From Muribaculaceae bacterium (GTDB lineage Bacteria; Bacteroidota; Bacteroidia; Bacteroidales; Muribaculaceae): a stretch of DNA of 39,694 bases. The notes beneath the pieces are model-generated. The model searched no databases. It was given only the letters and a program-made list of their open reading frames with translations, and was not told the DNA's origin. Positions within the stretch are counted from its first letter, which is position 1, and each line of letters starts with the position of its first letter. Of this stretch, positions 1,619-36,574 are shown piece by piece. The stretch spans positions 1 to 39,694 of the forward strand of contig JAFYSL010000062.1 in assembly GCA_017559355.1 (NCBI GenBank), read 5' to 3'. A program made the position numbers and the translations under genes.

Positions 1619-1750
1619 TATGGATTGATAGAATAAATAACGATGCTGATGTGAAAAGGAAAATAAATTTAGGTTAGCATATATAATTCTCAAAAAATGT
1701 TAATTGAGAATTTTTGTGCATTATCGCAGTTTTTCGGGTTATGGAGGTTG

Positions 1751-1758
1751 TAACTTTG
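1751..1758 (+). promoter_or_regulatory. -7 promoter element TAACTTTG
   Basis: Exact match to the Bacteroidetes TAnnTTTG -7 consensus, about 53 bases before the ATG at 1812. The -33 position holds only a T-rich run (1730-1734), not a clean TTTG. It probably drives the first capsid-cluster gene. Confidence 0.6.
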
Positions 1759-1811: not shown

Positions 1812-2321
1812 ATGGAAAACAATTTTCAATCAACAATTAATGCCGTAGTTGATACGGCTCGCGACATCGCCTCAAAGGTGGGCAATGCAACTGAAAATGT
1901 AGTGGAGAATGTAGTAGAAACTATCGGTGCTGTAACCGAAACCATCGACACTGTAAAAGATACTGCCGAGGAGGTGGTAGATGCATCAAAGGAGATGCCT
2001 TCGTTTAAGGATATTATGAAGGCCATTCTCAAGGATTCACGTGTGGGGCATTTTATTATTGACATCATCTCGGGGAAGGACGCTCGTGAAGCTTCTACGC
2101 AGTATTTCCCAAGTGATGCTGTGGCTGATGAAGTGGCAACAGTAGATGTAGATGCTCTTGTGAATGAGGCCGAAGAACGTGGCTATCTTCGTGGTCGCAA
2201 TGAGCAGATAGAGGTGAAAATGCGCGAACCTAATCAATGGCAGTTGGCTGACAATGCTCGTAAACCTGTAGTAGAAACCACAATCCTTAATCACCCTCGC
2301 CGCAGTGTGTGGGAAAACTAA
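1812..2321 (+). CDS. Helical, scaffold-like protein at head of capsid-like cluster (hypothetical)
   Basis: 169 residues from the ATG at 1812, chosen over an upstream in-frame start at 1767 that lies only 9 bases beyond the -7 element. Residues ~5-65 form one long, nearly Gly/Pro-free amphipathic helix rich in V, T, A, E and D with heptad-like spacing. A segment around residues 115-135 (LVNEAEERGYLRGRNEQIE) is charged and helical, and the tail is basic. There is no signal peptide or transmembrane segment. Its position directly before a major-capsid-like gene is where phages place scaffold proteins, and the helical, acidic character fits that role. The amphipathic helix could equally bind a membrane. 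Function is inferred from context and composition only; the protein family is not recognised. Confidence 0.75.
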   Translation: MENNFQSTINAVVDTARDIASKVGNATENVVENVVETIGAVTETIDTVKDTAEEVVDASKEMPSFKDIMKAILKDSRVGHFIIDIISGKDAREASTQYFPSDAVADEVATVDVDALVNEAEERGYLRGRNEQIEVKMREPNQWQLADNARKPVVETTILNHPRRSVWEN

Positions 2322-2327
2322 ATCAAG

Positions 2328-2383
2328 CGGAAAGAGGAGAGAGCAAAGAGCAAAAAGAAGAACCTCTTGAATTGAAAATTGAG
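2328..2383 (+). repeat. Polypurine intergenic repeat (copy 2)
   Basis: Begins seven bases after the stop of the scaffold-like gene. It repeats the GAGCAAAAAGAAGA block followed by CCTCTTGAATTGAAA seen at 1518-1545. Its presence inside the capsid cluster links the cluster to the host's general intergenic repeat family. Confidence 0.7.
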
Positions 2384-2480
2384 AACCCCGAAAGGCTCAA
2401 CGAGGCTTGACCGAGTTAATTGATAAGTGAAAATTGAAAAGTGAGACTTTCCTGCGTATTAGGGTTAACGATTTCACATT

Positions 2481-2520
2481 TTTCTGTTCTCTCCTCTTTA
2501 CTTTTATCTTTCATTTTTTA
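2481..2520. repeat. Polypyrimidine tract before capsid-like gene
   Basis: A C/T-rich run (TCTGTTCTCTCCTCTTTAC and beyond) lies 22 bases before the capsid-like start. With the purine tract at 2328-2383 it could form an imperfect long hairpin in the transcript between the first two cluster genes. Confidence 0.5.
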
Positions 2521-2542
2521 TCTATTTTAATTTTAAAGTACT

Positions 2543-3970
2543 ATGAATCAATTGAAACAACAACTAATTTCTTTATTTGGCAAAGCCGTTGAATGGCTTG
2601 CACAAAAGTATGGCATTTACACTTTTATCGCTATGGGCGCTGTGATTTTATGGTGGATTATCATGGGCGACGGCGACAGTTCGATTACGCTGGCTTCGGG
2701 TATGCTCATCGCTGGCATCAATGGCGGGAAGCATGTGGTAGATGGACCGCTCACCACATCACTATCCAACGAGGGGTCGCCCGATCTTCTTCGTAACGAA
2801 ATCGATGAACGTATAGTAAAAATTCGCCCTATGTCAACTCCTATCGACCAACTTTCACGTTTTGGAGGCAGTCGCTCATGTGGCAGTATGGTTGTAGACT
2901 ATTATTCGGTCGATACCAAAGCTACTGAAACAACTCTTACACAAGAGCATGACGAGGAAACCGAAGAGGGGAAAAGTGGTGAATACTATATCGCCACTAT
3001 TCACACCGAAAATGACGAAATTTTTGAGCCGTCGGAAACTATCCTCGTGCCCAACGTGAGTGGATATGGTCCTGATGGATTGAGTTATGACGGAACACTC
3101 GTGCTATATGTGTTGAGTCGTAACGATGATGGAGTTAAAGTCATTGCCGTGAATGGCAAATCGGTGATGGGGTATCGCAACCATGTGCCCACTATGGAGG
3201 TAGGTACCAAACTTATACGCATGGGGCGTGCAGCCAGCGAACTTGATGTGCAAACAGCTCAATTTGAGGCGCTGCCAACGAAAATGCAAAATAACTGCCA
3301 AATTTTCAAGACTCAAGTGGAGCAAAGCACATTTCAAAAAATCGCAAACAAGGAGGTGGGCTGGAGTTTCTCTGACCAAGAGGAGGCGGCAATTATCGAT
3401 ATGCGATTGGGTATGGAGAAGAGTTTCCTATTCGGTTCAAAGGCACGTATCTACGACTCAAACAAACGAGAAGATGTGTTGCTCACTGGTGGGATTTGGC
3501 ATCAAGCAGGGAGAGAGTTTAGATATGCCAAAGATGACTTTAATGCCAATTCAATAATTGACCTTTGTCGCGATGCATTCACTGCTAATGCTGGGTCAAA
3601 TCGCAAAATCTTAATAGGTGGTACAGGTCTTATTGAGGTAATCAATAAACTTGACTACAACAAAGTGATTTCTGCCAACGAAACGGTTACAAAATGGGGA
3701 ATCGATTTCACTGAGTTGCGTTCAAAATTTGGCACTCTCTATGTGTTGCACTCTGAGGTATTTGATCAATGTGGCCACTACTATGATGGTTTTGTTGTAG
3801 ACCCTGAGTATATCACAAAATACTGCCATGTGCCATTCCGTGCAGAGAAACTCGACTTACGAAAGAGTGGTGTGCGCAACACCGATGCTATTGTGGTGAC
3901 TGAAGCAAGTTGCCTTGTGTTGCGATATCCTCAAGCCCACATGCGTGTAATTGAAACATCTCAGGCATGA
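2543..3970 (+). CDS. Major capsid-like protein (SU10/HK97-fold type) with N-terminal membrane segment
   Basis: 475 residues. From about residue 85 the protein follows the pattern of SU10-type major capsid proteins (HK97 fold): an N-arm with KIRPMSTPIDQL (residues ~93-104), a spine-helix region around 250-305 (QIFKTQVEQ, then a long helix ending MEKSFLFGSKAR), and a C-terminal part with GTLYVLHSEVF, FVVDPEYI, RAEKLDLRKSG, and a final hydrophobic strand plus AHMRV. Unusually, residues ~24-41 (YGIYTFIAMGAVILWWII) are a strong hydrophobic helix and 47-59 a second weaker one; a capsid protein of this type would normally be about 330-350 residues without them. Its stop overlaps the next start (ATGA). 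Capsid assignment rests on recalled family pattern, not a search; membrane anchoring is inferred. Confidence 0.75.
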   Translation: MNQLKQQLISLFGKAVEWLAQKYGIYTFIAMGAVILWWIIMGDGDSSITLASGMLIAGINGGKHVVDGPLTTSLSNEGSPDLLRNEIDERIVKIRPMSTPIDQLSRFGGSRSCGSMVVDYYSVDTKATETTLTQEHDEETEEGKSGEYYIATIHTENDEIFEPSETILVPNVSGYGPDGLSYDGTLVLYVLSRNDDGVKVIAVNGKSVMGYRNHVPTMEVGTKLIRMGRAASELDVQTAQFEALPTKMQNNCQIFKTQVEQSTFQKIANKEVGWSFSDQEEAAIIDMRLGMEKSFLFGSKARIYDSNKREDVLLTGGIWHQAGREFRYAKDDFNANSIIDLCRDAFTANAGSNRKILIGGTGLIEVINKLDYNKVISANETVTKWGIDFTELRSKFGTLYVLHSEVFDQCGHYYDGFVVDPEYITKYCHVPFRAEKLDLRKSGVRNTDAIVVTEASCLVLRYPQAHMRVIETSQA

Positions 3971-4497
3971 AAATAACTCTCTCAAGCGAAGAAATGCTGG
4001 CGCAGTGGAAACTGCGCCGGGGTTTCGAGCCTCTACGCTCCGACTGTGTTATAACTCGCAACGATGGTGTTGATATTGACCAACTATTGAGGCTCGAAAT
4101 GCGCGACTGGTATCTTAATTTGCTCTGCACTGCTCCTGTGGAGATGTTAGTAACGACAAATATCGCCAACGACATTGCTGTAGTGGTGCGTGATGAGGGG
4201 GTGGGAATTGTAACTCTCCCCGAAAGCTGTAGACGCATCGTTGAATTTCAACTTGAGGGGTGGAGCAGACCGGCAAAAATTATCACTAACCCTCATTGCC
4301 AAGAGGCTATATTGCAGGAAAATCCTTATAGTCGTGGTGGCTGTGAACGACCTGTGGTGGTAATCCATGGCAATCGTTTATTCATCTATTCTCTACCCTC
4401 TTCTACTCCCAAGATTGTGCGTGCGATGGCTGTAATGGAGCCAGCCGACGGCACTTATGAAATGGACGAACGAGCAGTTTCATTAATTGAGAATTGA
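3967..4497 (+). CDS. Connector/head-completion-like small protein (hypothetical)
   Basis: 176 residues; the ATG shares ATGA with the capsid-like gene's stop, so translation is probably coupled and the product is likely needed in fixed ratio with the capsid protein. The first half is helical (EEMLAQWKLRRGFEPL; LLRLEMRDWYLNLLCTAP). The second half is beta-rich (IANDIAVVVRDEGVGIVTLP, then a VVVIHGNRLFIYS strand pair). No signal peptide or transmembrane segment. Between capsid and portal genes, a head-tail connector, neck or capsid-completion role is the simplest reading, but no family motif is recognised and this is inference from position. Confidence 0.7.
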   Translation: MKITLSSEEMLAQWKLRRGFEPLRSDCVITRNDGVDIDQLLRLEMRDWYLNLLCTAPVEMLVTTNIANDIAVVVRDEGVGIVTLPESCRRIVEFQLEGWSRPAKIITNPHCQEAILQENPYSRGGCERPVVVIHGNRLFIYSLPSSTPKIVRAMAVMEPADGTYEMDERAVSLIEN

Positions 4498-4566
4498 AAA
4501 AGGAAAGAGAAAAGAGGGGAGAGGAAAATATAAATTAACTCTATCGAGATTCTCTTCTCTCCTTTT
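4496..4566. repeat. Purine arm / pyrimidine arm pair between cluster genes
   Basis: The purine run at 4496-4530 (AAAAAGGAAAGAG followed by more A/G) is followed after ~20 bases by a pyrimidine run at 4550-4566 (TTCTCTTCTCTCCTTTT). The two arms are roughly complementary and could fold into a long imperfect hairpin in the 112-base gap before the portal gene. The motif belongs to the same dispersed repeat family as at 1469 and 2328. Confidence 0.6.
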
Positions 4567-4609
4567 ACCATTTTCAATGTTTCTTTAACCTCTAAATTCA
4601 CAATTTACT

Positions 4610-6001
4610 ATGTTTTTACCTAAAAATGAACGTGTGCTTGCGTTGGCTTACAAGGCGTGGCAATATGGTGAATCGCTTCGCAGTCGACGCAATCGATACA
4701 AGCAATATACCTATGGCGAGCAGTGGAACGACCTCGTGAGCGATGAACATGGCAACATCATTACCGAAGGGGAACTAGCCCTGAAAGATGGCAAACGACC
4801 TATGAGTAATAATCTCATTCGCCAGTTGGTGAAGTGTGTAGTGGGGCGTTTTCGCAATTCGCTCTACGACAACGATATTCCTGCCTTGCTCAAACCCATA
4901 TACAACCTCAACAATCTTAATGAACTGGATAGTCGTATGCTTGAAGAGTTCTTGATTTCGGGGTGTGCTATACAACGTATTTCGCTGGGTAATCTTCGTA
5001 AAGGTGACGGGGTGTGGGTGGAGAATGTAAATCCATCGCATTTCTTTGTCAACGCATTTAACGATCCTCGTGGGTGGGATATTGAAATGGTGGGTATGAC
5101 TCACAGCATGAGCATCACCGAGGTGATTATGCGATTTAGTGGAGGCGACCAAGCAAAAGCCAATGCGTTGCGACAACTATATTCACAAGATGAGATACAG
5201 CAGGGTGGCATATTTTTCAAAGCGCCAAATAATTGTTGTCGAGTTATTGAGGTGTGGACTCTTGAGAGTAAAGAGTCACTACTTTGCCACGACATACATC
5301 ATGGAGAGATGTTTATGACCGACCTAACATGCCGGTCGTTACTCGACCACGAAAATTCCATTCGTAAAAGAAACGATATGAAGGAGATAATCTCTCGCTG
5401 GCATATCAACACCTATTGGCAATGTCGTTATTTGGCTCCCGACGGCACTCTGCTTGATAGTTACATCTCACCCATCAATGCTCACCCTTTTGTGATAAAA
5501 CTCTACCCACTTATAGATGGCGAGGTGCACCCATTTGTTGAAGATGTAATTGACCAACAACGATATATCAATCGACTTATCGTGATGATTGATCATATTA
5601 TGAGCACTTCGGCTAAGGGGGCTCTCCTCTTCCCTGCCAATCAACGACATGAATCGATGTCGTGGGAGCAGATTGCCTCGCAATGGGCTAAAAGCGATAG
5701 TGTTATCCCCTACAACCCCTCATCGGGTAATCCAGGTCCTCAACAAATTGCGGCAAACAATACAAATATAGGAGCCTTTGAGCTACTGTCGCTCGAGATG
5801 AAATTGTTTGAAGATGTGAGTGGAGTGAGCAGCGCACTGATGGGAAAAAGCAACACTGGCACAAATGGCTCGGCACTCTACGAATCGCAAATAAAGAATG
5901 CTACAATCGCTCTTGCCGACATTTTTGAAACATTCAATCACTTCCGTGAGGAGAGGGACGAGAGAATGTGTTTCATGATGCAAAATGTGGCTCTCAAGTG
6001 A
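4610..6001 (+). CDS. Phage portal-like protein
   Basis: 463 residues. The N-terminus has the portal pattern of a helical start (ALAYKAWQYGESLRSRRNRYKQYTYGEQW), then GKRPMSNNLIRQLVKCVVGRFRN, which matches the conserved 'N.i...v....g' clip-entry helix of P22-like portals. The middle is beta-rich with a W-x-Y/cyto-like wing (ISRWHINTYWQCRYLAPDG). A late segment DVIDQQRYINRLIVMIDHIMSTSAKG resembles the long crown/stem helix, and GVSSALMGKSNTGTNGSALYESQ resembles the 'G.....G....tG.a' tunnel-loop helix. In tailed phages the portal is the dodecameric DNA gate at one capsid vertex. It appears short at the C-terminus relative to large P22-type portals. No terminase is adjacent. Portal assignment is fairly confident; activity is unknown. 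Confidence 0.78.
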   Translation: MFLPKNERVLALAYKAWQYGESLRSRRNRYKQYTYGEQWNDLVSDEHGNIITEGELALKDGKRPMSNNLIRQLVKCVVGRFRNSLYDNDIPALLKPIYNLNNLNELDSRMLEEFLISGCAIQRISLGNLRKGDGVWVENVNPSHFFVNAFNDPRGWDIEMVGMTHSMSITEVIMRFSGGDQAKANALRQLYSQDEIQQGGIFFKAPNNCCRVIEVWTLESKESLLCHDIHHGEMFMTDLTCRSLLDHENSIRKRNDMKEIISRWHINTYWQCRYLAPDGTLLDSYISPINAHPFVIKLYPLIDGEVHPFVEDVIDQQRYINRLIVMIDHIMSTSAKGALLFPANQRHESMSWEQIASQWAKSDSVIPYNPSSGNPGPQQIAANNTNIGAFELLSLEMKLFEDVSGVSSALMGKSNTGTNGSALYESQIKNATIALADIFETFNHFREERDERMCFMMQNVALK

Positions 6002-6058
6002 GGTGAAAATTTTTAATTATTAATCTCGTTGGGTAGCGATATTGCCCATGCGTGATTT

Positions 6059-6066
6059 TATCTTTG
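6059..6066 (+). promoter_or_regulatory. -7 promoter element TATCTTTG
   Basis: Exact TAnnTTTG match 61 bases before the ATG at 6128, with no clear TTTG at -33. It suggests that the last two cluster genes can be transcribed separately from the capsid and portal genes by the host housekeeping sigma factor. Confidence 0.6.
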
Positions 6067-6127
6067 TACTACCGATTGAAATCCAATTCTCGTTATCGAT
6101 TAAACCTATTCTAAATCATTAATTGTC

Positions 6128-6508
6128 ATGCTTGAAGAAGTCTTAATCAGAAATCGCGACATCAAAAAATGTTACAACCGCATCGTGAAACAATATAAGA
6201 AACTGGGGCAAAATCCGTCGATTTCAACTGTTGTGAATGATGCAATATCAACTAAAGCGCCAAGTTATTATCTCACTTTCGACTATGCTCGCCGACTATT
6301 GAGTCAATATCGTCGCAAGCAGTTGCCCAAAAGTTATCGCAGGCTACGCCACGATATGGTTGTGGAGATTGCACGCAAAGTTGACCGACTAATACAACGA
6401 AATCCCTCGCTTAGCGAAAGTGATGCTCTCTCGATGGTGCTCGCCTCAGGCAATGCCTCTCGTTTCTTTATATCCGAAGTATCGGCTCGCCGTCTTATTA
6501 ACCACTAA
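6128..6508 (+). CDS. Small basic protein with internal duplication (HTH-like; hypothetical)
   Basis: 126 residues, strongly basic and helical. Two halves look duplicated: QNPSISTVVNDAIS...YYLTFDYARRLLS (about residues 32-62) and RNPSLSESDALSMV...FFISEVSARRLIN (about 95-125). Each half has NPS-[IL]-S, a helix, paired aromatics followed by [LI]-[TS], and ARRL-[LI]. This spacing would suit tandem helix-turn-helix-like DNA-binding units. In a capsid cluster, a small-terminase-like or regulatory DNA-binding role is possible but inferred. It has its own -7 element upstream and sits 15 bases before the next gene, so the two are probably co-transcribed. Confidence 0.75.
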   Translation: MLEEVLIRNRDIKKCYNRIVKQYKKLGQNPSISTVVNDAISTKAPSYYLTFDYARRLLSQYRRKQLPKSYRRLRHDMVVEIARKVDRLIQRNPSLSESDALSMVLASGNASRFFISEVSARRLINH

Positions 6509-6523
6509 TACCCTAATCCCACT

Positions 6524-7006
6524 ATGACACAATCTATATCACTTAATCTATCAACCGAGGCCATCATGAGGGAGATATATGCATTGTCGGCCCTTAGATG
6601 CCTTTCAAATGGAGATGAATCGCGACCTCCAATTCTCACTCGCGACCGTGCTCCAGCCCTAAAATTGCTCATTAGAGATACATTTGCTTTTATAGTAATG
6701 AAGATTATCAGATATGTTGAAAATTGCAATATCAATGATGTTTCTCAGTTGACAAATGATGTCGATGATGAGATATTAAGCGTTGACTTAAAGGTGTGTA
6801 GCGATGTAACCGACACTGCCACCAAAGCAATGCGACAAGCTCTCAACCATTGCATCTCGGCCTATGCGCTATATATATGCTACATAGGTCACGACGACAC
6901 AACGAGCAAGCAATATGAACATATTGCCAACGAGGAGATTATGACCTTATTGCAACTCCTATCTATTACATCTTTCAGAGGTGTAAATATCTCTCCCCGA
7001 TATTAA
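6524..7006 (+). CDS. Helical hypothetical protein, last gene of capsid-like cluster
   Basis: 160 residues from the ATG at 6524. Almost all alpha-helical: an N-terminal helix (TEAIMREIYALSALRCLS), a central hydrophobic helix LLIRDTFAFIVMKIIRYV (about residues 47-65), and two C-terminal helices (TKAMRQALNHCISAYALYICYI; ANEEIMTLLQLLS). No signal peptide; the helices look amphipathic rather than membrane-spanning. Not recognised. Its stop codon overlaps the convergent MscS-type gene's stop by a few bases (7003-7006), so the cluster boundary is tight. Phage connector proteins are often small and helical like this, but that is only suggestive. Confidence 0.7.
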   Translation: MTQSISLNLSTEAIMREIYALSALRCLSNGDESRPPILTRDRAPALKLLIRDTFAFIVMKIIRYVENCNINDVSQLTNDVDDEILSVDLKVCSDVTDTATKAMRQALNHCISAYALYICYIGHDDTTSKQYEHIANEEIMTLLQLLSITSFRGVNISPRY

Positions 7007-8178
7007 AGGGAATTCAAATCAAGTCCTGACGGACTTTGGAAGATACGCAAGTCGAAATCATGCGCCACAGCAATAATGTGGTCAAAGATTTCGGCTTGTA
7101 TATTTTCATATTTAACCCATTCAGTAGTTGCAGTGAAGAAATACAATTCGACTGGCACTCCATGATTGGTTGACTGTAATTGTCGCACCATTTTGAGCAT
7201 CTCTTTATTCACTCCTGGGTGAGTAGCCAAATATTGCTCAATATAATGGCGATAAAGATGAAGATTTACGACCTTATTTACTGGAGGAATAAAGTTTTGG
7301 CACCACTCTTGTTGCAAATATTTTTGCATCTCTTCATCAGTAACGAAACGCACCGAGTTGAGGTCGATATTAACCGAACGCTTGACTCGTCGACCTCCGC
7401 TTAACTGCATACCACGCCAGTTTTGGAAAGATTCGCTCACAAGAGAATAAGGTGGCACAGTGACAATAGTCATATCCCAATTACGCACCTTTACGGTAGT
7501 GAGCGACACATCTTCAACCGTACCATTTACTCCATGCTTTGGAGCCTCAATCCAGTCTCCAGGTTTCAACATATCATTGACCGAAAGTTGCACTCCAGCA
7601 ACAAGACCTACTATGGTATCCTTAAATATCAGCATTAACACGGCCGCTGAAGCTCCTAGTCCTGATAGTATTATTACTGGGTTTTTATTGATGAGTATTG
7701 AAACTATTATAATAAGTCCCACACATATTGCAATAATCTTGAGCATCTGCATAAGACCTTTTAGAGAATGTCCATCAAATGATTGTGTTTGACGCGATGC
7801 TAAGTATATCGACGAGAACAATACCACAACTGCTCTTACAGCCATCATCACCACATAAATGAGCACAATCTTCTCTCCAGCGACCTCAATTGCTGGGAAA
7901 TCACTCATTAATACTGGAATTAACATATACACCAACACAGGTGGTACAAGATGACACACACTGGACAATAATCGGTCATTAAAGAGGGCATCGTCCCATG
8001 TCACTGTGGTGCGTTCTACAATGCGACGCACTGCCTCATTCACAATTTTATGAATAATGAAGTAAGACACAATTGCGACTAATGCTAGCACCAATATCCC
8101 CACACTGAGCGCCAATACATTTACATACCCTGCCGATACCCCCATAGCAAGGAGCATATTTGTTATCTCTTGGTTCAT
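7003..8178 (-). CDS. MscS-family mechanosensitive ion channel (YbdG-like)
   Basis: 391 residues. Several N-terminal transmembrane helices (around residues 18-45, 75-95, 100-125, 145-165) precede the pore-lining helix rich in Gly/Ala (VIILSGLGASAAVLMLIFKDTIVGLVAG), followed by the beta domain signature (QLSVNDMLKPGDWI, then GTVEDVSLTTVKVRNWD and TVPPYSLVSESFQNW). The C-terminal cytoplasmic domain is longer than in E. coli MscS and matches the miniconductance/YbdG branch. Role: tension-gated release of solutes in the inner membrane under hypo-osmotic shock. It converges on the capsid-like cluster with overlapping stops and is divergent from pdxA across a 252-base AT-rich gap. Confidence 0.92.
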   Translation of the reverse strand: MNQEITNMLLAMGVSAGYVNVLALSVGILVLALVAIVSYFIIHKIVNEAVRRIVERTTVTWDDALFNDRLLSSVCHLVPPVLVYMLIPVLMSDFPAIEVAGEKIVLIYVVMMAVRAVVVLFSSIYLASRQTQSFDGHSLKGLMQMLKIIAICVGLIIIVSILINKNPVIILSGLGASAAVLMLIFKDTIVGLVAGVQLSVNDMLKPGDWIEAPKHGVNGTVEDVSLTTVKVRNWDMTIVTVPPYSLVSESFQNWRGMQLSGGRRVKRSVNIDLNSVRFVTDEEMQKYLQQEWCQNFIPPVNKVVNLHLYRHYIEQYLATHPGVNKEMLKMVRQLQSTNHGVPVELYFFTATTEWVKYENIQAEIFDHIIAVAHDFDLRIFQSPSGLDLNSL

Positions 8179-15103: not shown

Positions 15104-15149
15104 TGTCCTCTCTACATTCTCCTCTTTCCTTTTTCATCTCTCTTTTTTA
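15104..15149 (-). repeat. Polypurine repeat at 3' end of second BspA gene
   Basis: On the minus strand this purine tract follows the stop codon and matches the DNA after the first BspA gene's stop almost base for base over ~45 bases (including GAGAGATGAAAAAGGAAAG), with a two-base length difference just after the stop. Confidence 0.75.
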
Positions 15150-17348
15150 CTCTTTGATGATTTCCTTTCGTGTAGAACCATCGCTCATTTTGATGATATT
15201 GATACCTTTTGTTGGTTTAGAAAGTAAACGCCCATGCATGTCGTAGCGAGCCTCTTCAACGGTGTTATTATCGGCTTCTACTCCTTCAACTCCTATGATT
15301 TCTTGTATTTTCCCAAACTTATACCATTCATCAGCAACTGCATATTTAATGTCAGTTCCTTCGGGCACTTTTAGAAGAGCGGAATAACTGTTATTTGGAT
15401 TTCCATCAAAGGCGCCATCGGCACAAGTAGGAGGGAGCATACAATAAGAAACAACAAGTCTTAATCCACAATTATAAAATGCATTATTGCCAATAGTGAC
15501 TACGGAGTTGCCGATGGTAACTGATTTCAAGCCGTCGCAATCACAGAACGCATAGTTGCCAATCTCGGTAACGGAATTAGGGATTGTTACCGAGGTCAAG
15601 CTTGTGCAACCATAGAACGCATCCGAGCTAATTGAAGTTACATTATATTTTCTATCTCCGAAATTAATAGTAGAAGGTATAATTAATTCTGAAGAAAGAT
15701 TATTATCATAAGACTTAACTTCTAATTCATTTATAGAAGTAACTTTATATTTAATACCATCAATAGCTAATGGAATTTCATTAAACTTTTTAAATGCACT
15801 CCATGTTGATTTTTTATATGTATCAATAGTTCCCTCTATTATAGTTAATGGGACATTATAATTTGCAAAACTATTCTTTTGTATAGTTGGAGGATTTATT
15901 GCATTTACTATAATCTCTGTCAAGCCAGTGCATCTATAGAACGCTTTATCGCCAATTGAGGTTACAGTATTGGGGATTGTTACTGAGGTTAAGCCTGTGC
16001 AACCAGTGAAGAATGCAAATGGGGAAATTGATATTGTGCCATCCTTGATTGAAATTGATGTACCCTCAGGCATAGTCCCTTTATATTTATACAAAACATT
16101 GTTAATATATATAACACCATTTGCAAGATTACCATACCATCTTGTGCGAAGGAACGCATCAGAGCCAATCGAGGTTACGGAATTTGGGATTGTTACCGAG
16201 GTCAAGCTTGTGCAACCAGTGAACGCATAGTCGCCAATTGAGGTTACGGAATTAGGGATAGTTACCTCGGTCAAACCGTAGCAATTTGAGAACGCAGACG
16301 AACTAATCAAATGAGTTCCATCTTTTATGGTTAATGTTTCTGTAGGTTTTTCCCCCTTATAACCTAAACAACAATTATCTAAATACAATATTCCATTTGA
16401 TTGGTTTTCATACCATCCTGTGCCAGAGAACGCTTTATCGCCAATTGAGGTTACGGAATTGGGGATTGTTACAGAAATCAAGTCGGAGCAATCATAGAAC
16501 GCCTCCTTGCCAATCTCAGTTACAGAATTAGGAATTGCTACAGAGGTCAAGCCAGTGCATTCAGAGAACGCTTCATCGCCAATTGAGGTTACGGAATTGC
16601 CAATTGTTGCCTCAGTCAAGCCAGTGCATTCATGGAACGCACCCGAGCCAATTGAGGTTACGGAATTGGGGATGGTTACCGAAGTCAAGCCAGTGCAATC
16701 ATAGAACGCAAATTCACCAATTGAGGTTACTGAATTGGGGATAGTTACCGAGGTCAAGCCTGTGCAACCAGGGAACGCATAGGATTTTATTTGGGAAATA
16801 TCATCAGGAATAACTAAATTTTTTATTTCAGAACCATTAAGTTTGAGTGTTTTTGCATTAAATAACGGATTTGCAGCAGTATATCTAAAACTTATTTTAC
16901 ACCATGCTGATAAATCAGAGATATTAACCTCGGTCAAGCTGGTGCAATTAAAGAACGCTTCAACGCCAATTGAGGTTACGGAATTGGGGATAGTTACCGA
17001 GGACAAGCCTGTGCAATTAGAGAACGCTTCATCGCCAATTGAGGTAACGGAATTGGGGATAGTTATCGAGGTCAAGCTTGAGCAATAACAGAACGCATAG
17101 TAGCTAATCTCGGTTACGGAATAAGTAGTGCCCCAATAAGTTACCGATGAGGGGATTGTAACAGCACTGGTGTATTCGTCAGAATAACTATAATATTTGT
17201 CTCCTTTGAAAGTAACAGCGACAGTATTGGCTGATTGGTCAATAAAATTGTAATAAATGCCATTGACTTCAAAGTCGTGAGCAAGTGCAGTTGTGCTTAG
17301 GAATAGGCTGACAATCGCGAATAGCAGTTTGTTGAGATTATATTTCAT
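15147..17348 (-). CDS. BspA-like leucine-rich repeat surface protein (complete)
   Basis: 733 residues from the ATG at 17348; the longer in-frame start at 17387 lies within the -7 element and is rejected. Signal peptide MKYNLNKLLFAIVSLFLSTT-ALA. Then a beta-rich lead-in and about twenty 23-residue LRR_5 units of the LTSVTIPNSVTSIG type in several blocks, separated by non-LRR inserts (around residues 150-190, 310-345, 395-430 and 490-570). The C-terminus has ARYDMHGRLLSKPTKGINI and TRKEIIKE, as in the gene at the window start, resembling a type IX sorting tail. Expected to be exported and surface-displayed; ligand unknown. BspA-like proteins are adhesins or host-binding proteins in related bacteria. 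Confidence 0.94.
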   Translation of the reverse strand: MKYNLNKLLFAIVSLFLSTTALAHDFEVNGIYYNFIDQSANTVAVTFKGDKYYSYSDEYTSAVTIPSSVTYWGTTYSVTEISYYAFCYCSSLTSITIPNSVTSIGDEAFSNCTGLSSVTIPNSVTSIGVEAFFNCTSLTEVNISDLSAWCKISFRYTAANPLFNAKTLKLNGSEIKNLVIPDDISQIKSYAFPGCTGLTSVTIPNSVTSIGEFAFYDCTGLTSVTIPNSVTSIGSGAFHECTGLTEATIGNSVTSIGDEAFSECTGLTSVAIPNSVTEIGKEAFYDCSDLISVTIPNSVTSIGDKAFSGTGWYENQSNGILYLDNCCLGYKGEKPTETLTIKDGTHLISSSAFSNCYGLTEVTIPNSVTSIGDYAFTGCTSLTSVTIPNSVTSIGSDAFLRTRWYGNLANGVIYINNVLYKYKGTMPEGTSISIKDGTISISPFAFFTGCTGLTSVTIPNTVTSIGDKAFYRCTGLTEIIVNAINPPTIQKNSFANYNVPLTIIEGTIDTYKKSTWSAFKKFNEIPLAIDGIKYKVTSINELEVKSYDNNLSSELIIPSTINFGDRKYNVTSISSDAFYGCTSLTSVTIPNSVTEIGNYAFCDCDGLKSVTIGNSVVTIGNNAFYNCGLRLVVSYCMLPPTCADGAFDGNPNNSYSALLKVPEGTDIKYAVADEWYKFGKIQEIIGVEGVEADNNTVEEARYDMHGRLLSKPTKGINIIKMSDGSTRKEIIKE
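16150..17110 (-). repeat. Tandem 69-nt LRR-coding repeats
   Basis: Plus-strand blocks of the form GCCAATTGAGGTTACGGAAT followed by TGGGGATNGTTACCGAGGTCAAGC recur at ~69-base spacing through the gene. Some copies are near identical, giving ready substrate for slippage or unequal crossing-over. Confidence 0.85.
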
Positions 17349-17384
17349 AGTGGTAATTATTTTTAAGTTATTTATATACCACTG

Positions 17385-17392
17385 CAAATATA
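17385..17392 (-). promoter_or_regulatory. -7 promoter element for BspA gene
   Basis: Minus strand TATATTTG, an exact TAnnTTTG match, about 36 bases before the ATG at 17348. No TTTG at the -33 position. Confidence 0.6.
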
Positions 17393-32006: not shown

Positions 32007-33386
32007 TTATCTACCACCACCGAGTGATTGATAGAGATTAATAATCGCTTGTGTTTTAGTGTGTTCGCATGCTAATTGCGACATTTGAGCAGCCAATAGA
32101 TTTTGTTGTGCAGTGAGCACTTCCAAGTAAGTTGATGTTCCCAAAGTCAACAACTCTTGGGTGTATTCTACCGACTTTTCAAGATTTTCAATCTGCTTAT
32201 TCAAAAGATTTACTTTCTCATCGCTCTTTTGACACACCATCATTGCATCGCTCACCTCAGCACTTGCGTTGAGGAGTGAATATTCAAAGTTGTTCATCGC
32301 TTGCTTTTGAGCAGCCTTTGACGCTTCGAGTGTTGCGATGTTTTTGCCACGAGAGAATAAGGGAGCAGTCAACTGTCCAGCAAGTTGAATAAACCAATCA
32401 CCAGGATTAACTATTACCGAACCTGCTGAGTTGGTAAAGCCGCCATTTGCCGAGATTGTCAAATTGGGATAGAACGCTGCACGAGCAAGATTGGTTGCAT
32501 AGAATGCTTTTGCCAATTCCATCTCCGACGCATATACGTCAGGGCGAGCAGCCAATTCTGCCATAGGCACACCTGCTCTCACAATATTAGGCATAGTCAT
32601 TACTGCTTGTGATGAGATGCTCCATTTTTGAGGTAACACATTGAGGAGTAACGACATTGTATTGTTTGTATCATTGAGCGATACTTCAAGGTCGGTGATA
32701 GTAGCCAACAAATTATAGTAACTTGCAGTGCTTTGCACGATAGCAGCCTCGTTAAGGCGTCCATCAAGTTTGAGATTCTTCATTACCTCAATACTTTCAG
32801 CCCATAGACGAGCAGTTTCATTATACAACTCGATTTGGCGTTGTATTGTTGCTATAGCATAGTAACAGTTTGCTACGCCACCTATGATTTGAGAGCGAAC
32901 GGCTTGATTATAAGCCTTTGTTTGCTCTACTGTAACCTCTGCGCTACGTTTGTTGTTGAGTAATTTGCCGAAGATGTCGATTTCCCAGCTCACAGCCAAT
33001 GGAATTTGGTATGTACCAATGAAATCGCTACCTGCAAACGATGAATAACTCCCACTTGGAGCCAATGCTACCGATGGGAGATAGCTCAATTTAGCGCCTT
33101 TGAGTTGTGCTTGTGCAATATCTACATTGAGTTTGGCATTTTGTAGGTTCACATTGTTTTCAAGGGCTTTGTTAATCAAGTCAACGAGTACAGGATCGGT
33201 AAACACCTCTTCCCAACGAAGATTGCCAAATGCATTTGTGTCAACAGCCTCCTCTTTTACTTTTGCATACTCTGCTACGAGTGCGCTACCATCTTGAGGT
33301 GTTTCATATTTTTTATATATGCCACAACTGCTCAGCATAGCGATGCTGAGAGTCATGGTTGCAATATATTTCATCTTATTAGTCAT
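32007..33386 (-). CDS. TolC/OprM-like outer-membrane efflux lipoprotein
   Basis: 459 residues from the ATG at 33386; a second ATG at 33374 is also possible. Signal with lipobox AMLSSCGIYK. NodT-family pattern: LRWEEVFTDPVLVDLINKAL, then NVNLQNAKLNVDIAQAQLKG, SYLPSVALAPSGSYSS, and WEIDIFGKLLNNKRSAE in repeat 1; the second half has LAARPDVYASEMEL, ARAAFYPNLTISANGGFTN and TYLEVLTAQQNLLAAQ. Trimers form the outer-membrane channel of tripartite pumps. The RND permease stop lies 14 bases upstream. Confidence 0.93.
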   Translation of the reverse strand: MTNKMKYIATMTLSIAMLSSCGIYKKYETPQDGSALVAEYAKVKEEAVDTNAFGNLRWEEVFTDPVLVDLINKALENNVNLQNAKLNVDIAQAQLKGAKLSYLPSVALAPSGSYSSFAGSDFIGTYQIPLAVSWEIDIFGKLLNNKRSAEVTVEQTKAYNQAVRSQIIGGVANCYYAIATIQRQIELYNETARLWAESIEVMKNLKLDGRLNEAAIVQSTASYYNLLATITDLEVSLNDTNNTMSLLLNVLPQKWSISSQAVMTMPNIVRAGVPMAELAARPDVYASEMELAKAFYATNLARAAFYPNLTISANGGFTNSAGSVIVNPGDWFIQLAGQLTAPLFSRGKNIATLEASKAAQKQAMNNFEYSLLNASAEVSDAMMVCQKSDEKVNLLNKQIENLEKSVEYTQELLTLGTSTYLEVLTAQQNLLAAQMSQLACEHTKTQAIINLYQSLGGGR

Positions 33387-33400
33387 AGTCGTAACAGTAT

Positions 33401-36400
33401 TTAGTTGCGTGAATATTGTTCCAATTCCGATTCGATACCTTGGTTGTCGGTGTCTTTCCACTTGATTGGAGTGAATTTTTCTTGAATTGTTTGGAAGATT
33501 ACAAACAACGCGGGCACGATAAATACTTGGAGTATCATACCTATTAACATACCACCAATCGAACCAGCACCAAGAGCGTTATTACCATTTGCTCCTACAC
33601 CCGATGCAAACATCATTGGCAACAAACCAATAATCAATGCCAACGAAGTCATCAAGATTGGACGCAAACGTGCTGCAGCACCCGCCACGGCTGCATTTGC
33701 TATGCTCATACCTGTGCGACGGCGTTCTACCGCGAATTCTACAATCAAGATTGCGTTCTTCGCCAACAAACCGATAAGCATAATCAATGCAATTTGTAGA
33801 TATACGTTGTTGGTTATATCACCTATTTTTGCAAAGATAAATGTACCCATCAATCCGAATGGGATAGAGAGGATTACACCTAATGGAAGGATATAACTTT
33901 CGTATTGTGCACTCAACAAGAGATATACAAACAAGAAACACAATCCGAAGATAATTGCTGTTGCGCTACCCGATGAAGATTGTTCTTCGCGAGTCATACC
34001 AGCATATTCATAGCCATAACCTTGTGGTAGATATTGAGCAGCCGTACGTTCGATAGCGGCAATTGCGTCACCCGATGAATATCCAGGTGCTGGAGTACCT
34101 GATACTGAAATCGCAGTAAACATATTGAAACGAGTCAACAAGTCGGGACCATAAACGCGTTTAAGCGATACGAAATTGCTGATTGGGGCCATTTCAGCGC
34201 CGTTGCGCACCTTAATGCTATTAAGTGTTTCAGGTGATACGCGTGAATCGGGAGTTGCCTGCATCATCACACGATAAAGTTTACCGAAACGGTTGAAGTT
34301 AGATACATACATACCACCATAATAGCCTTGCAATGTAGTGAGGATTGTTTGTGGGCTCAATCCTGCTTGTTTTGCTTTAGCCACATCGATGTCCACTAAA
34401 TATTGAGGGAACGATGGGTTGAATGTAGTGTATGCCATTTGAATTTCTGGGCATTTGTTCAACTCAGCAAGGAAGTTCATAGCAATACCATGGAATTTAT
34501 TGATATCACCACCAGTTTTATCTTGAAGTTTCAAGTCAAAGCCATTTGTTACTGAGTAACCCGAAATCATAGGTGGGGCAAAGAACATTACACGACCATC
34601 TTTGATTTTTTGTCCAGTCATTCCGTAGAGTTGTTGAACGATTTTGTCGCTACGTTCATCTTCGCTACGTTCCTCCCAGTTTTTCAATTTGATGATAAAT
34701 GCACCGTATGTTGCACCTTGACCAGCTACGAAACTATATCCGTTTACCATCACGCGAGTTTGGATTGCTGGTACTTGAGCAAGAATTTGATCCACTTGGT
34801 CAAGAACCTCACCTGTGCGTTCTTGTGATGTAGCTGGAGGCATGTCGATTACGGCAAAAATTGTACCTGTATCTTCATCGGGCACGAGTGCTGTAGGTGT
34901 TGAACCCATCAACCACACAAGCGCTGCAATAGCGATAACCACGATAAGGAGTGAAATTTTCTTTGCTTTGATAAAGAATTTAGTTACACCTTTATATTTT
35001 TCAAGCATTGCATCATAAGCAGCGTTAAATCCAGTATGGAAACGCTTTACAAAACTTTGTTTTCCTTCCTCATGTTCTTCATGTGGTTTGAGGAAAATTG
35101 CACAAAGAGCAGGAGAGAGTGTCAACGCGTTCACTGCCGAGAATGCAATAGAGATTGCCATTGTAATACCAAATTGCTTGTAGAATACACCACTTGTACC
35201 AGGCATAAACGATACTGGAATAAACACAAGCATCATTACCAATGTAATAGAAATCAATGCACCAGCAATTTCACCCATTGCGTCGATTGAAGCACGACGA
35301 GCCGATTTGTAGCCCACATCGAGTTTGGCGTGTACCGCCTCGACCACCACAATGGCGTCATCGACCACAATCGCAATCGCCAGAACGAGTGCTGAAAGTG
35401 TAATCAAATTGATTGAGAAACCAATAAGGTTCATCACGAAGAATGTACCAATCAATGCTACTGGAATAGCGATTGCAGGAATGATTGTTGAACGAATATC
35501 TTGAAGGAAGATATATACCACGATAAACACGAGTACAAATGCCTCGAGCAATGTTTTTATTACCTCGTGGATTGATGCTTCAAGGAACTCATTTGTATTC
35601 ATTGGCACCTCAATAGCCAACCCCTTAGGAAGATCTTTCTTTGCATCTTCAAGCATCGCGAGAATGTTCTTGATGATTTCAGTTGCATTTGATCCTGGAG
35701 TTTGGAAAATCATTGCTGTTGCAGCAGTTTTGCCATTTACCTTGCTTTCAAAACCGTAAGATACGCGGCCCAATTCCACTTCGGCAACATCTTTCAAGTA
35801 AAGAATTTCTCCGTCGGGAGAGGCTTTAACTACAATTTGTTCAAATTCTTCAGGAGTTACCAAGCGTCCTTTATATTTCATAATATATTGGAAACTTTGG
35901 TTGCCCCATTCACCAAATTGACCAGGAGCAGCTTCTATGTTTTGTTCTGAAAGTACAGCAGAGATATCCGAAGGCATCAATCCATATTGTGCCATAACAT
36001 CGGGTTTGAGCCATATACGCATTGAGTAGTCGGCACCAAGCACCATTGCATCACCCACACCACTCACACGTTGAATTTGTGGAATGATGTTGATTTTCAA
36101 ATAGTTCTCAACAAATTCAGTTGATAGAGTGCTATCTTCGGCATATACACTCACCGCCATCAACATTGATGTTTGGCGTTTTTGAGTAATCACACCCACT
36201 TTTGTTACTTCGGCAGGGAGCAAACCTTGTGCTTTTGCTACACGGTTTTGAACATCAATAGCCGCCATATCGGGGTCATAACCTTGCTCAAAATACACTG
36301 TAATAGTTGCATTACCTGTATTGGTCGCTGTTGATGTCATGTAAGTCATGTTTTGAGCACCGTTGATTTGTTCTTCAAGAGGTGCTACTACCGAGTTAAG

Positions 36401-36574
36401 CACAGCTTGTGCATTCGCCCCAGTATAAGTTGTTTGCACCGAGATTGTAGGTGGTGCAATATCTGGGAATTGTGTTACGGGGAGAGCAAATAACCCAATC
36501 AACCCCAATAACACGATGAATATTGAGATAACCGTCGAAAGTACTGGACGATTAATAAAATTATCAAGTTTCAT
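33401..36574 (-). CDS. RND-family (HAE1/AcrB-like) efflux permease
   Basis: 1057 residues, standard for the family. Proton-driven drug and amphiphile pump in the inner membrane. Features: N-terminal FINRPVLSTVISIFIVLLG, LPVTQFPDIAPPTISVQTTY, porter-domain blocks (QNRVAKAQGLLP, QNIEAAPGQFGE), TM4 with VDDAIVVVEAVHA carrying the proton-relay aspartates, LVPDEDTGTIF after TM7, and TM10-12 ending MIGLLAKNAILIVEFAVERR. It is flanked by the adaptor 39 bases upstream and the outer-membrane factor 14 bases downstream. Substrate range cannot be read from sequence. Confidence 0.97.
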   Translation of the reverse strand: MKLDNFINRPVLSTVISIFIVLLGLIGLFALPVTQFPDIAPPTISVQTTYTGANAQAVLNSVVAPLEEQINGAQNMTYMTSTATNTGNATITVYFEQGYDPDMAAIDVQNRVAKAQGLLPAEVTKVGVITQKRQTSMLMAVSVYAEDSTLSTEFVENYLKINIIPQIQRVSGVGDAMVLGADYSMRIWLKPDVMAQYGLMPSDISAVLSEQNIEAAPGQFGEWGNQSFQYIMKYKGRLVTPEEFEQIVVKASPDGEILYLKDVAEVELGRVSYGFESKVNGKTAATAMIFQTPGSNATEIIKNILAMLEDAKKDLPKGLAIEVPMNTNEFLEASIHEVIKTLLEAFVLVFIVVYIFLQDIRSTIIPAIAIPVALIGTFFVMNLIGFSINLITLSALVLAIAIVVDDAIVVVEAVHAKLDVGYKSARRASIDAMGEIAGALISITLVMMLVFIPVSFMPGTSGVFYKQFGITMAISIAFSAVNALTLSPALCAIFLKPHEEHEEGKQSFVKRFHTGFNAAYDAMLEKYKGVTKFFIKAKKISLLIVVIAIAALVWLMGSTPTALVPDEDTGTIFAVIDMPPATSQERTGEVLDQVDQILAQVPAIQTRVMVNGYSFVAGQGATYGAFIIKLKNWEERSEDERSDKIVQQLYGMTGQKIKDGRVMFFAPPMISGYSVTNGFDLKLQDKTGGDINKFHGIAMNFLAELNKCPEIQMAYTTFNPSFPQYLVDIDVAKAKQAGLSPQTILTTLQGYYGGMYVSNFNRFGKLYRVMMQATPDSRVSPETLNSIKVRNGAEMAPISNFVSLKRVYGPDLLTRFNMFTAISVSGTPAPGYSSGDAIAAIERTAAQYLPQGYGYEYAGMTREEQSSSGSATAIIFGLCFLFVYLLLSAQYESYILPLGVILSIPFGLMGTFIFAKIGDITNNVYLQIALIMLIGLLAKNAILIVEFAVERRRTGMSIANAAVAGAAARLRPILMTSLALIIGLLPMMFASGVGANGNNALGAGSIGGMLIGMILQVFIVPALFVIFQTIQEKFTPIKWKDTDNQGIESELEQYSRN

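Follow-up and report, generated by a model that had tools for sequence, protein, structure and literature searches.

Why should genes for a phage capsid and a phage portal lie intact, with no packaging motor or tail beside them, among the ordinary genes of a gut bacterium? The question is raised by a six-gene cluster on contig JAFYSL010000062.1 of a Muribaculaceae bacterium (assembly GCA_017559355.1, 72% complete), the whole 39,694 bases of which form the window analysed here. An earlier interpretation made from the letters alone (the sequence-only reading) had taken the cluster for a domesticated and maintained shell-forming system, and had offered a gene-transfer-agent core, a nanocompartment or an interference element as its function. 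We find that the capsid and portal genes are nearly universal in the family, as are genes for a large terminase (TerL) and a tail-like protein that mostly lie elsewhere in the genome. The genes of this kit appear to have been kept from an ancient phage, scattered over the chromosome and inherited with the host. We think it probable, judging from gene content and distribution, that the kit is a family-wide, multi-locus, podovirus-type gene transfer agent (GTA) or a GTA-like DNA-packaging particle. Genomes (G), contigs (C), loci (L) and genera (g) are cited by our own handles where they must be told apart.

The full set would comprise a scaffold-position protein, an SU10 capsid, an adaptor-position protein, a short P22 portal, a small-terminase-position protein, gene 6, TerL and the tail-like protein. 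The window would hold the head half of this packaging system, in six genes (lengths in amino acids, aa):

1812..2321, plus strand: gene 1, scaffold-position protein, 169 aa from its ATG, with a homologue before the capsid gene in phage contig L093
2543..3970, plus strand: major capsid protein, SU10/HK97-fold family, 475 aa, recognised by Pfam and PDB profiles
3967..4497, plus strand: gene 3, probable head-completion or adaptor protein, 176 aa, matching PHROG 22135 (1.9e-5), a function proposed from position alone
4610..6001, plus strand: portal protein, P22 type, 463 aa, without the C-terminal ~180 residues of its phage homologues
6128..6508, plus strand: gene 5, small-terminase-position protein, 126 aa, matching PHROG 27246
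6524..7006, plus strand: gene 6, 160 aa, with a homologue directly 3' of the portal gene in phage contig L224

These open reading frames run on one strand without interruption, and the coordinates first given for them stand. The gene 3 start overlaps the capsid stop (3967 versus 3970), and gene 1 has a helical N-terminus and a conserved C-terminal motif, AExRGYLRGRNE...RrSVW. Open reading frames and Pfam bear out the description of six intact same-strand genes enclosed by unrelated host genes, of BspA type on one side and of MscS type on the other, where the MscS-type stop and the gene 6 stop overlap at the 3' edge of the cluster. The suspected SU10/HK97-type capsid and portal are likewise confirmed by profile hidden Markov model (HMM) matches from Pfam, PHROG and the PDB. 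The capsid matches SU10_MCP (PF17236; E 4.6e-53, 181.1 bits versus a curated cut-off of 24.1) and the PDB profile 9in6 (7e-12); the portal matches P22_portal (PF16510; E 1.6e-17, 63.7 bits versus 26.1), PHROG 156 (E 1.6e-38, covering columns 12-459 of 681) and the PDB profile 8jov (4e-4). At 463 aa the portal lacks the C-terminal region of a full-length P22-type portal, and portal length is bimodal: the family portal is ~470 aa long, with most family loci at 425-524 aa (and three fragments near 300), and the viral peak lies near 650 aa. Among the matches listed, some family genomes carry phage-type portal frames of ~650-713 aa beside the short one.

Among named phages, the Bacteroides podophages BKO1-TP3, BS-TP4 and BF1-TP2 (PQ571269, PQ571277, PQ571263) come nearest, with portals 35-36% and capsids 39-41% identical to those of the window. 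Unlike the kit, they are recorded as complete phage genomes of 64-68 kb, and the two that were fetched, BKO1-TP3 and BF1-TP2, have a TerL homologous to that of the family together with portals of full length (622 and 656 aa), in contrast to the shortened family portal. The closest phage capsid (53%) belongs to the IMG/VR phage contig L093 (IMGVR_UViG_2681813420_000001), a single contig that shares with the kit TerL and genes similar to those for scaffold, gene 3, gene 5 and gene 6. It differs in the extra phage genes nearby (fibre-, lysozyme- and spanin-like, by eye), and a full-length portal of 658 aa lies on contig L222, which carries the same genome number. Taken together, related phages possess homologues of all eight kit proteins.

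Within the family the kit is close to universal. The capsid gene was found in 179 of 198 Muribaculaceae genomes (132 of 141 good assemblies), the portal in 186 (135), TerL in 181 (134) and the tail-like protein in 170 (126), each in 29 of the 30 genera. This is the opposite of a block met only as sporadic fragments of full prophages in close relatives, the outcome that the sequence-only reading had named as its own refutation. Most capsid and portal members among the matches listed have open frames, over 29 of the 30 genera. An order-wide search of 198 genomes recovered the portal in 15, three of them in the family (the window's genome, G013 and G022); outside it were 11 genomes with full-length phage-type portals (620-709 aa) and one fragment of 348 aa. 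Named genome contigs yielded 322 confirmed capsid relatives, the best 80 of which come from Muribaculaceae or from metagenome-assembled genomes labelled Bacteroidales, Prevotellaceae, Porphyromonadaceae, Barnesiella or Sodaliphilus. Many capsid-relative records are from ruminants, according to their titles, and in the mouse gut the Muribaculaceae rank among the dominant bacteria.

TerL was first seen near the capsid gene in G022. In an alignment of 21 family and three phage sequences the Walker-A-like residues K126, R128, Q129, G131, S133 and T134 are invariant, as are E232, E266 and the nuclease residues D435, E492, D591 and D592, the ATPase and nuclease roles being those that we presume from general knowledge of TerL. 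A protein of ~660-860 aa lies near TerL in 17 of 24 family TerL loci by BLAST. An HMM placed it at most 2.4 kb from TerL in 27 of 27 genomes where it turned up in the stretch fetched around TerL, the only stretches counted, and in most it overlaps TerL or is less than 50 bp away; in G007 and G096 the two genes are far apart. Three members scanned had no Pfam match, PDB profile searches of this protein and of gene 3 gave no credible match, and HHalign of its profile against the open reading frames of nine phage or phage-like loci gave none. Its HMM found homologues in phage contigs L224, L335, L356 and L358 and in a phage-type locus of another family (L052), and in L224 the homologue is directly 5' of the portal gene. 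We call the protein tail-like, a putative assignment made from position and phage homology alone. Of 118 viral loci with both genes (from two overlapping scans, some contigs being counted twice), 114 have the gene 5 homologue 5' of TerL, on the same strand and no more than 2.5 kb away. Because this position upstream of TerL is the usual place of the small terminase subunit, we regard gene 5 as a small-terminase-position protein.

The arrangement of these genes varies from compact to scattered. A compact cluster of ~10 kb, in the order tail-like, TerL, gene 1, capsid, gene 3, portal, gene 5, gene 6, is present in part of genus g22 (G022 and G097, and G158 without the tail-like gene at its contig edge) and in IMG/VR contig L217, which is cut at both ends. 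Three compact clusters have a gap of ~0.7-0.9 kb between TerL and gene 1 that contains no assigned core gene (L066, 11195-12071; L217, 4129-4804; L404, 6605-7299) and could be regulatory. Elsewhere the set is broken up. TerL lies within 10 kb of the capsid gene in only seven of the 44 genomes where both were located and apart from it in 37, and portal and capsid genes share a location in 27 of 43, the 16 with separate locations being of genera g17, g21, g23, g25 and, in one case, g22. On the single 3.34-Mb contig of G172 the capsid (1,893,621), portal (1,358,446) and TerL (936,875) occupy three separate places; on a 3.31 Mb contig of G057 capsid and portal lie near 180,000 and TerL and the tail-like gene near 2,730,000; and head and TerL are also separate on single contigs of G007, G094, G096, G010 and G053. 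The contiguous late genes of a prophage are thus confined to part of g22 and IMG/VR contigs, and in most relatives examined they are dispersed. With its loci scattered on the chromosome, the set is therefore unable to package itself as a prophage does, and one packaging event could hardly hold all of the loci in G172, hundreds of kb apart. The ancestral state was probably one ~10 kb cluster, which would since have come apart into the two or three loci of most genomes examined.

Phylogenies place nearly all family sequences apart from phages. In the portal tree 42 of 43 family members and five short-portal IMG/VR contigs form a clade apart from phages with support of 1.0; 42 of 43 members and two such contigs do so for TerL (0.91), and 45 of 46 members, four such contigs and phage L093 for the capsid (0.94). 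G030 is the exception in all three trees, from which sequences below 350-500 aa were dropped. Among eight genera with at least two sampled species, seven are monophyletic for the capsid, seven for the portal, eight for TerL and six for the housekeeping marker PdxA, and four of five are so in the tree of the tail-like protein (sequences of 250 aa or less dropped). Recent horizontal spread is rejected in view of these mostly monophyletic genera. The capsid, portal and TerL trees have 18-20 splits in common with the PdxA tree versus at most 2 in 300 shuffles, and pairwise distances correlate with those of PdxA in the whole set (r 0.59-0.74). Without genera g1 and g30, TerL and the tail-like protein give r 0.53 and 0.57 with PdxA; Mantel tests were weaker than the tree tests. 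Selection on the capsid, portal and TerL is purifying, with a median within-genus ratio of nonsynonymous to synonymous substitution (dN/dS) of 0.18 (33 pairs), 0.24 (31) and 0.18 (34), respectively; the tail-like protein has 0.34 (11 pairs) and the four small genes have 0.30-0.40 (all pairs with dS below 2). We suggest that the Muribaculaceae acquired a phage-derived DNA-packaging system in a single capture, at the base of the family or close to it, and that the system may have passed mostly vertically since.

Between G103 and G129 (terminase loci L119 and L116) TerL is 97% identical, PdxA 87%, the capsid 81% and the tail-like protein 52%. This pattern is one sign of exchange: either TerL was exchanged recently or the tail-like gene has been replaced rapidly.

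The sequence around the head cluster adds a promoter, an intergenic repeat and the flanking host genes:

1719..1758, plus strand: promoter, with box CATTATCGCAGTTTTT at 1719-1734, 16 bp, and the Bacteroidales -7 element TAACTTTG at 1751-1758
6059..6066, plus strand: second -7 element, TATCTTTG, 5' of genes 5 and 6, read by eye
2316..2440, no strand assigned: purine-rich intergenic repeat, with copies at 1487-1539 and on contigs C11 and C69
29-1468: left flank, BspA-type leucine-rich repeat protein (LRR_5, 7e-57)
7003-8178, minus strand: right flank, MscS-type channel (2.8e-16)

The host-type -7 element that had been noticed is indeed present at 1751-1758, and the spaced box/-7 pattern matches once in the window where 0.06 matches are expected. 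In G129, G103, G152, G011 and G154 the head locus and the terminase/tail locus apart from it are each preceded by a variant of this box, and the variants agree within a genome. Over 1.85 Mb from 104 family loci the pattern TATCGC-N20-26-TAnnTTTG has 12 sites, nine of them before a core gene, compared with 154 of 1,439 TAnnTTTG elements overall; reversing the box as a control left a single site, which preceded no core gene. Two of the nine (L116, L418) fall inside frames as mechanically called. Genome-wide, a related pattern has 20 sites in G011 and 37 in G154 (controls 0) and 0-6 in other genomes. We take the box to be a candidate host promoter class common to the scattered loci, its dedication to the kit being unproven.

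Five similar genes of G011 (L498, L500, L507, L508, L513) each begin 26-32 bp after a box of the type found at its head and tail-like loci, and the two that were tested are both DUF6291 (PF19808). In G154 a conserved promoter-like element, TATAGGCCAAATTCGCAGAT...TAnnTTTGC, precedes varied host genes (L516-L545). We set aside as a possible operator a palindrome 5' of gene 1, TGATTGCAATCA or its 10-bp core, as it was seen only there, in four g1 genomes, and not at the terminase locus. The repeat at 2316-2440 recurs at 1487-1539 and on two further contigs of this genome (G000), matching at 81-89%, which upholds the view that the gaps around the head cluster have a repeat in common with other parts of the genome. 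The family scans covered selected proteins, and those with Pfam or NCBIfam took in 18 proteins of the window. A second, related BspA-type repeat protein shares the contig with the left flank (15147-17387), and ordinary host genes for an RND efflux permease and an outer-membrane component (NCBIfam) lie at 32007-36574.

Candidate lysis genes occur in part of the family. Of its 198 genomes, 61 have a match for holins of PF05105, which in 49 exceeds the cut-off. An endolysin-like gene, by sequence, adjoins the holin in 15 of 30 loci examined (30 of the 61 holin genomes), and Pfam confirmed Amidase_2, Amidase_3 or Peptidase_M15_3 in all seven holin-neighbour genes tested. The cassette adjoins a RecQ-like helicase gene in G011 and lies between host-like genes in G005 (names by eye). 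In G011 and G154 the holin is preceded by the genome's own box, as at the head and tail-like loci; in G183 holin and tail-like gene, ~139 kb apart, have a common box; and in G034, where only the holin was looked at, the box is present. The head operon of G045 runs gene 3, portal, gene 5, gene 6, holin, with the holin starting ~30 bp past gene 6. An M15 endolysin adjoins the portal gene in genus g17 (G017, G040, G060) and the capsid gene in G164. Lysis by the kit seems plausible from these neighbourhoods. In the window's assembly neither M15 endolysin nor PF05105 holins had a match.

Part of genus g30 (G030, G100) has a different kit, related to BKO1-TP3-type phages and kept at one place, which consists of gene 5, scaffold, capsid, gene 3, TerL and a portal of 505-506 aa (L107 = G030:C17 and L465 = G100:C15; BLAST to G030 served to recognise gene 3 and scaffold in G100). 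The kit of G030 has host-like genes on both sides, read by eye. A kit of the same type in G181 is split over two contigs (L463, L464) and has a 570-aa portal. This is apparently a second, independent domestication, again with a short portal (505-570 aa).

How might such a system work? We propose that the head and terminase/tail loci, joined in some genomes by the holin-endolysin cassette, would be switched on together from the shared host-type promoter; capsids would assemble around the portal, the terminase would package host DNA, and lysis would free short-tailed particles that may deliver DNA to relatives. Six features define a GTA in PMC9662315: proteins derived from tailed phages, full endogenisation, often at several loci, mostly vertical inheritance with co-diversification, random packaging of host DNA, a head too small for its own genes, and delivery to cells. 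Measured against these, the kit has proteins similar in sequence to those of tailed phages, is fully endogenised at several loci (three places in G172, two in G057) and shows mostly vertical inheritance and co-diversification at the genus level, which between genera are not demonstrated for capsid and portal. The intact active sites of TerL bear on random packaging of host DNA. We infer particle formation, host-DNA packaging, lysis and delivery, and the GTA core is the best of the three functions offered for the cluster. We give an even chance to the fuller statement that this is a complete, functional, family-wide podovirus-type GTA, the first in Bacteroidota in the literature searched, made from at least three unlinked loci, for head, terminase/tail and lysis, with a single promoter class governing their joint expression, and replaced in part of one genus by the second, independently domesticated short-portal kit. 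No GTA of Muribaculaceae was among the literature matches listed, in a search with most subscription journals outside its coverage.

Several observations weigh against the GTA interpretation. Particles, packaged DNA and transfer are unproven, and the system is known here from genes alone. The splits common to the kit and PdxA trees almost never join different genera, and the portal monophyly of genus g1 has a support of 0.25. Without g1 and g30 the capsid and portal distances give r 0.22 and 0.11 with PdxA, and r 0.13 and 0.13 with TerL; because the capsid and portal correlations collapse in this way, deep co-divergence is not demonstrated for the head genes. TerL is missing from seven of 141 good assemblies, and neither TerL nor the tail-like protein was found in the window's assembly or in G005, which is of the window's genus and 99% complete. 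At least five capsids (by eye) and at least nine portals among the matches listed have internal stops, some of which probably reflect matches that only read past the gene end. PF05105 holins were not found throughout the family and were also matched in three of 14 control genomes, and the M15 endolysin, at 41 of 119, falls outside the core kit. Seven of the nine box sites before core genes come from genus g1 and so are not independent, and the box also precedes ordinary host genes at the genome-wide sites in G154 and G011. The tail-like protein evolves fast and owes its name to position and phage homology, and no receptor-binding, ejection or protease gene was identified.

Other explanations have to be set against the same evidence. 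A PBSX-like element, the particles of which package host DNA, lyse the producer and kill or inhibit relatives without delivering DNA, would be expected to have the same gene content, and the fast divergence of the tail-like protein between G103 and G129 (52%, versus 97% for TerL and 87% for PdxA) fits a part that faces receptors or competitors. However, the short tail that a P22-type portal implies contrasts with the long tail of PBSX, and no immunity gene was noticed (none was searched for); we regard this explanation as unlikely, if the strongest of the rivals. It is more improbable still that the kit is a phage-defence or interference device, in which truncated portal and capsid proteins poison the assembly of podophages of the same type. 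A truncated portal could be dominant negative, and the family does contain full-length phages of this lineage, as the phage-type portal frames of ~650-713 aa among the matches listed attest. Yet an active-site-conserved terminase, a tail-like protein and a holin would be superfluous for such a device, the whole kit is under purifying selection, and the window proteins are just ~35-41% identical to those of the named Bacteroides phages.

A neutral remnant of an old prophage would account for the lack of integrase, replication and repressor genes, none of which was noticed among the cluster genes read (no search for integrase or replication families was made), and for genomes such as G005 and G104 in which terminase or tail-like gene was not detected. 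We nevertheless give this very little credence, as the genes are mostly single-copy and near-universal, their frames are open in most of the matches listed over 29 of 30 genera, and dN/dS is 0.18-0.24 for capsid, portal and TerL; on the strength of purifying selection and near-universality a decaying prophage is rejected, as the sequence-only reading had also judged. Least credible of all is a capsid-based nanocompartment without DNA. Taken alone, the window invites it, with a capsid and a scaffold-like protein beside host genes, and the remark that no packaging motor or tail accompanies them is correct for the window, where the TerL and tail-like HMMs match nothing. It fails for the relatives, which carry both elsewhere. 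An encapsulin-type shell has neither portal nor terminase, whereas here the portal gene adjoins the capsid gene and TerL is present in 181 of the 198 family genomes, and among the 40 commonest gene clusters in the loci that were fetched, none is a cargo-like gene recurring next to the capsid. Since the relatives' terminase and tail-like protein are nearly as universal as the capsid, and the portal about as widespread, the nanocompartment is rejected, and the idea of a self-contained shell system without a motor is not supported.

We therefore return to a GTA or GTA-like particle as the preferred interpretation. Its several loci, together with a phylogeny of the whole family, make it a good system for studying how phages become host organs. 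There is also a practical consequence, as fragments of the kit in a virus database can pass for viruses: five IMG/VR contigs (L217-L221) carry the family's short-portal kit filed as viral, and may be pieces of bacterial chromosome mistaken for viruses.

Among known systems, one of the closest in description is FpGTA of Faecalibacterium, which is likewise podovirus-like and found in gut bacteria. According to PMC12946183, a 10.5-kb operon there encodes TerS, TerL, portal, scaffold and capsid, and further structural and holin-endolysin genes lie in a second locus ~125 kb away; the kit, too, is multi-locus. FpGTA differs in that it belongs to Gram-positive Ruminococcaceae and that its particles, DNA and proteome have been shown, whereas the kit spans a whole family and has a shortened portal, the two being likened by description and not by sequence. 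PBSX of Bacillus subtilis packages 13-kb pieces of host DNA and acts like a bacteriocin, as set out in PMC7667829. Like RcGTA-type and other viriform GTAs, as these are characterised in PMC9662315, the kit is phage-derived, endogenised at several loci and mostly vertically inherited; compared with RcGTA, again by description and for genes alone, it descends from a Bacteroidales phage with an SU10 capsid and a P22 portal.

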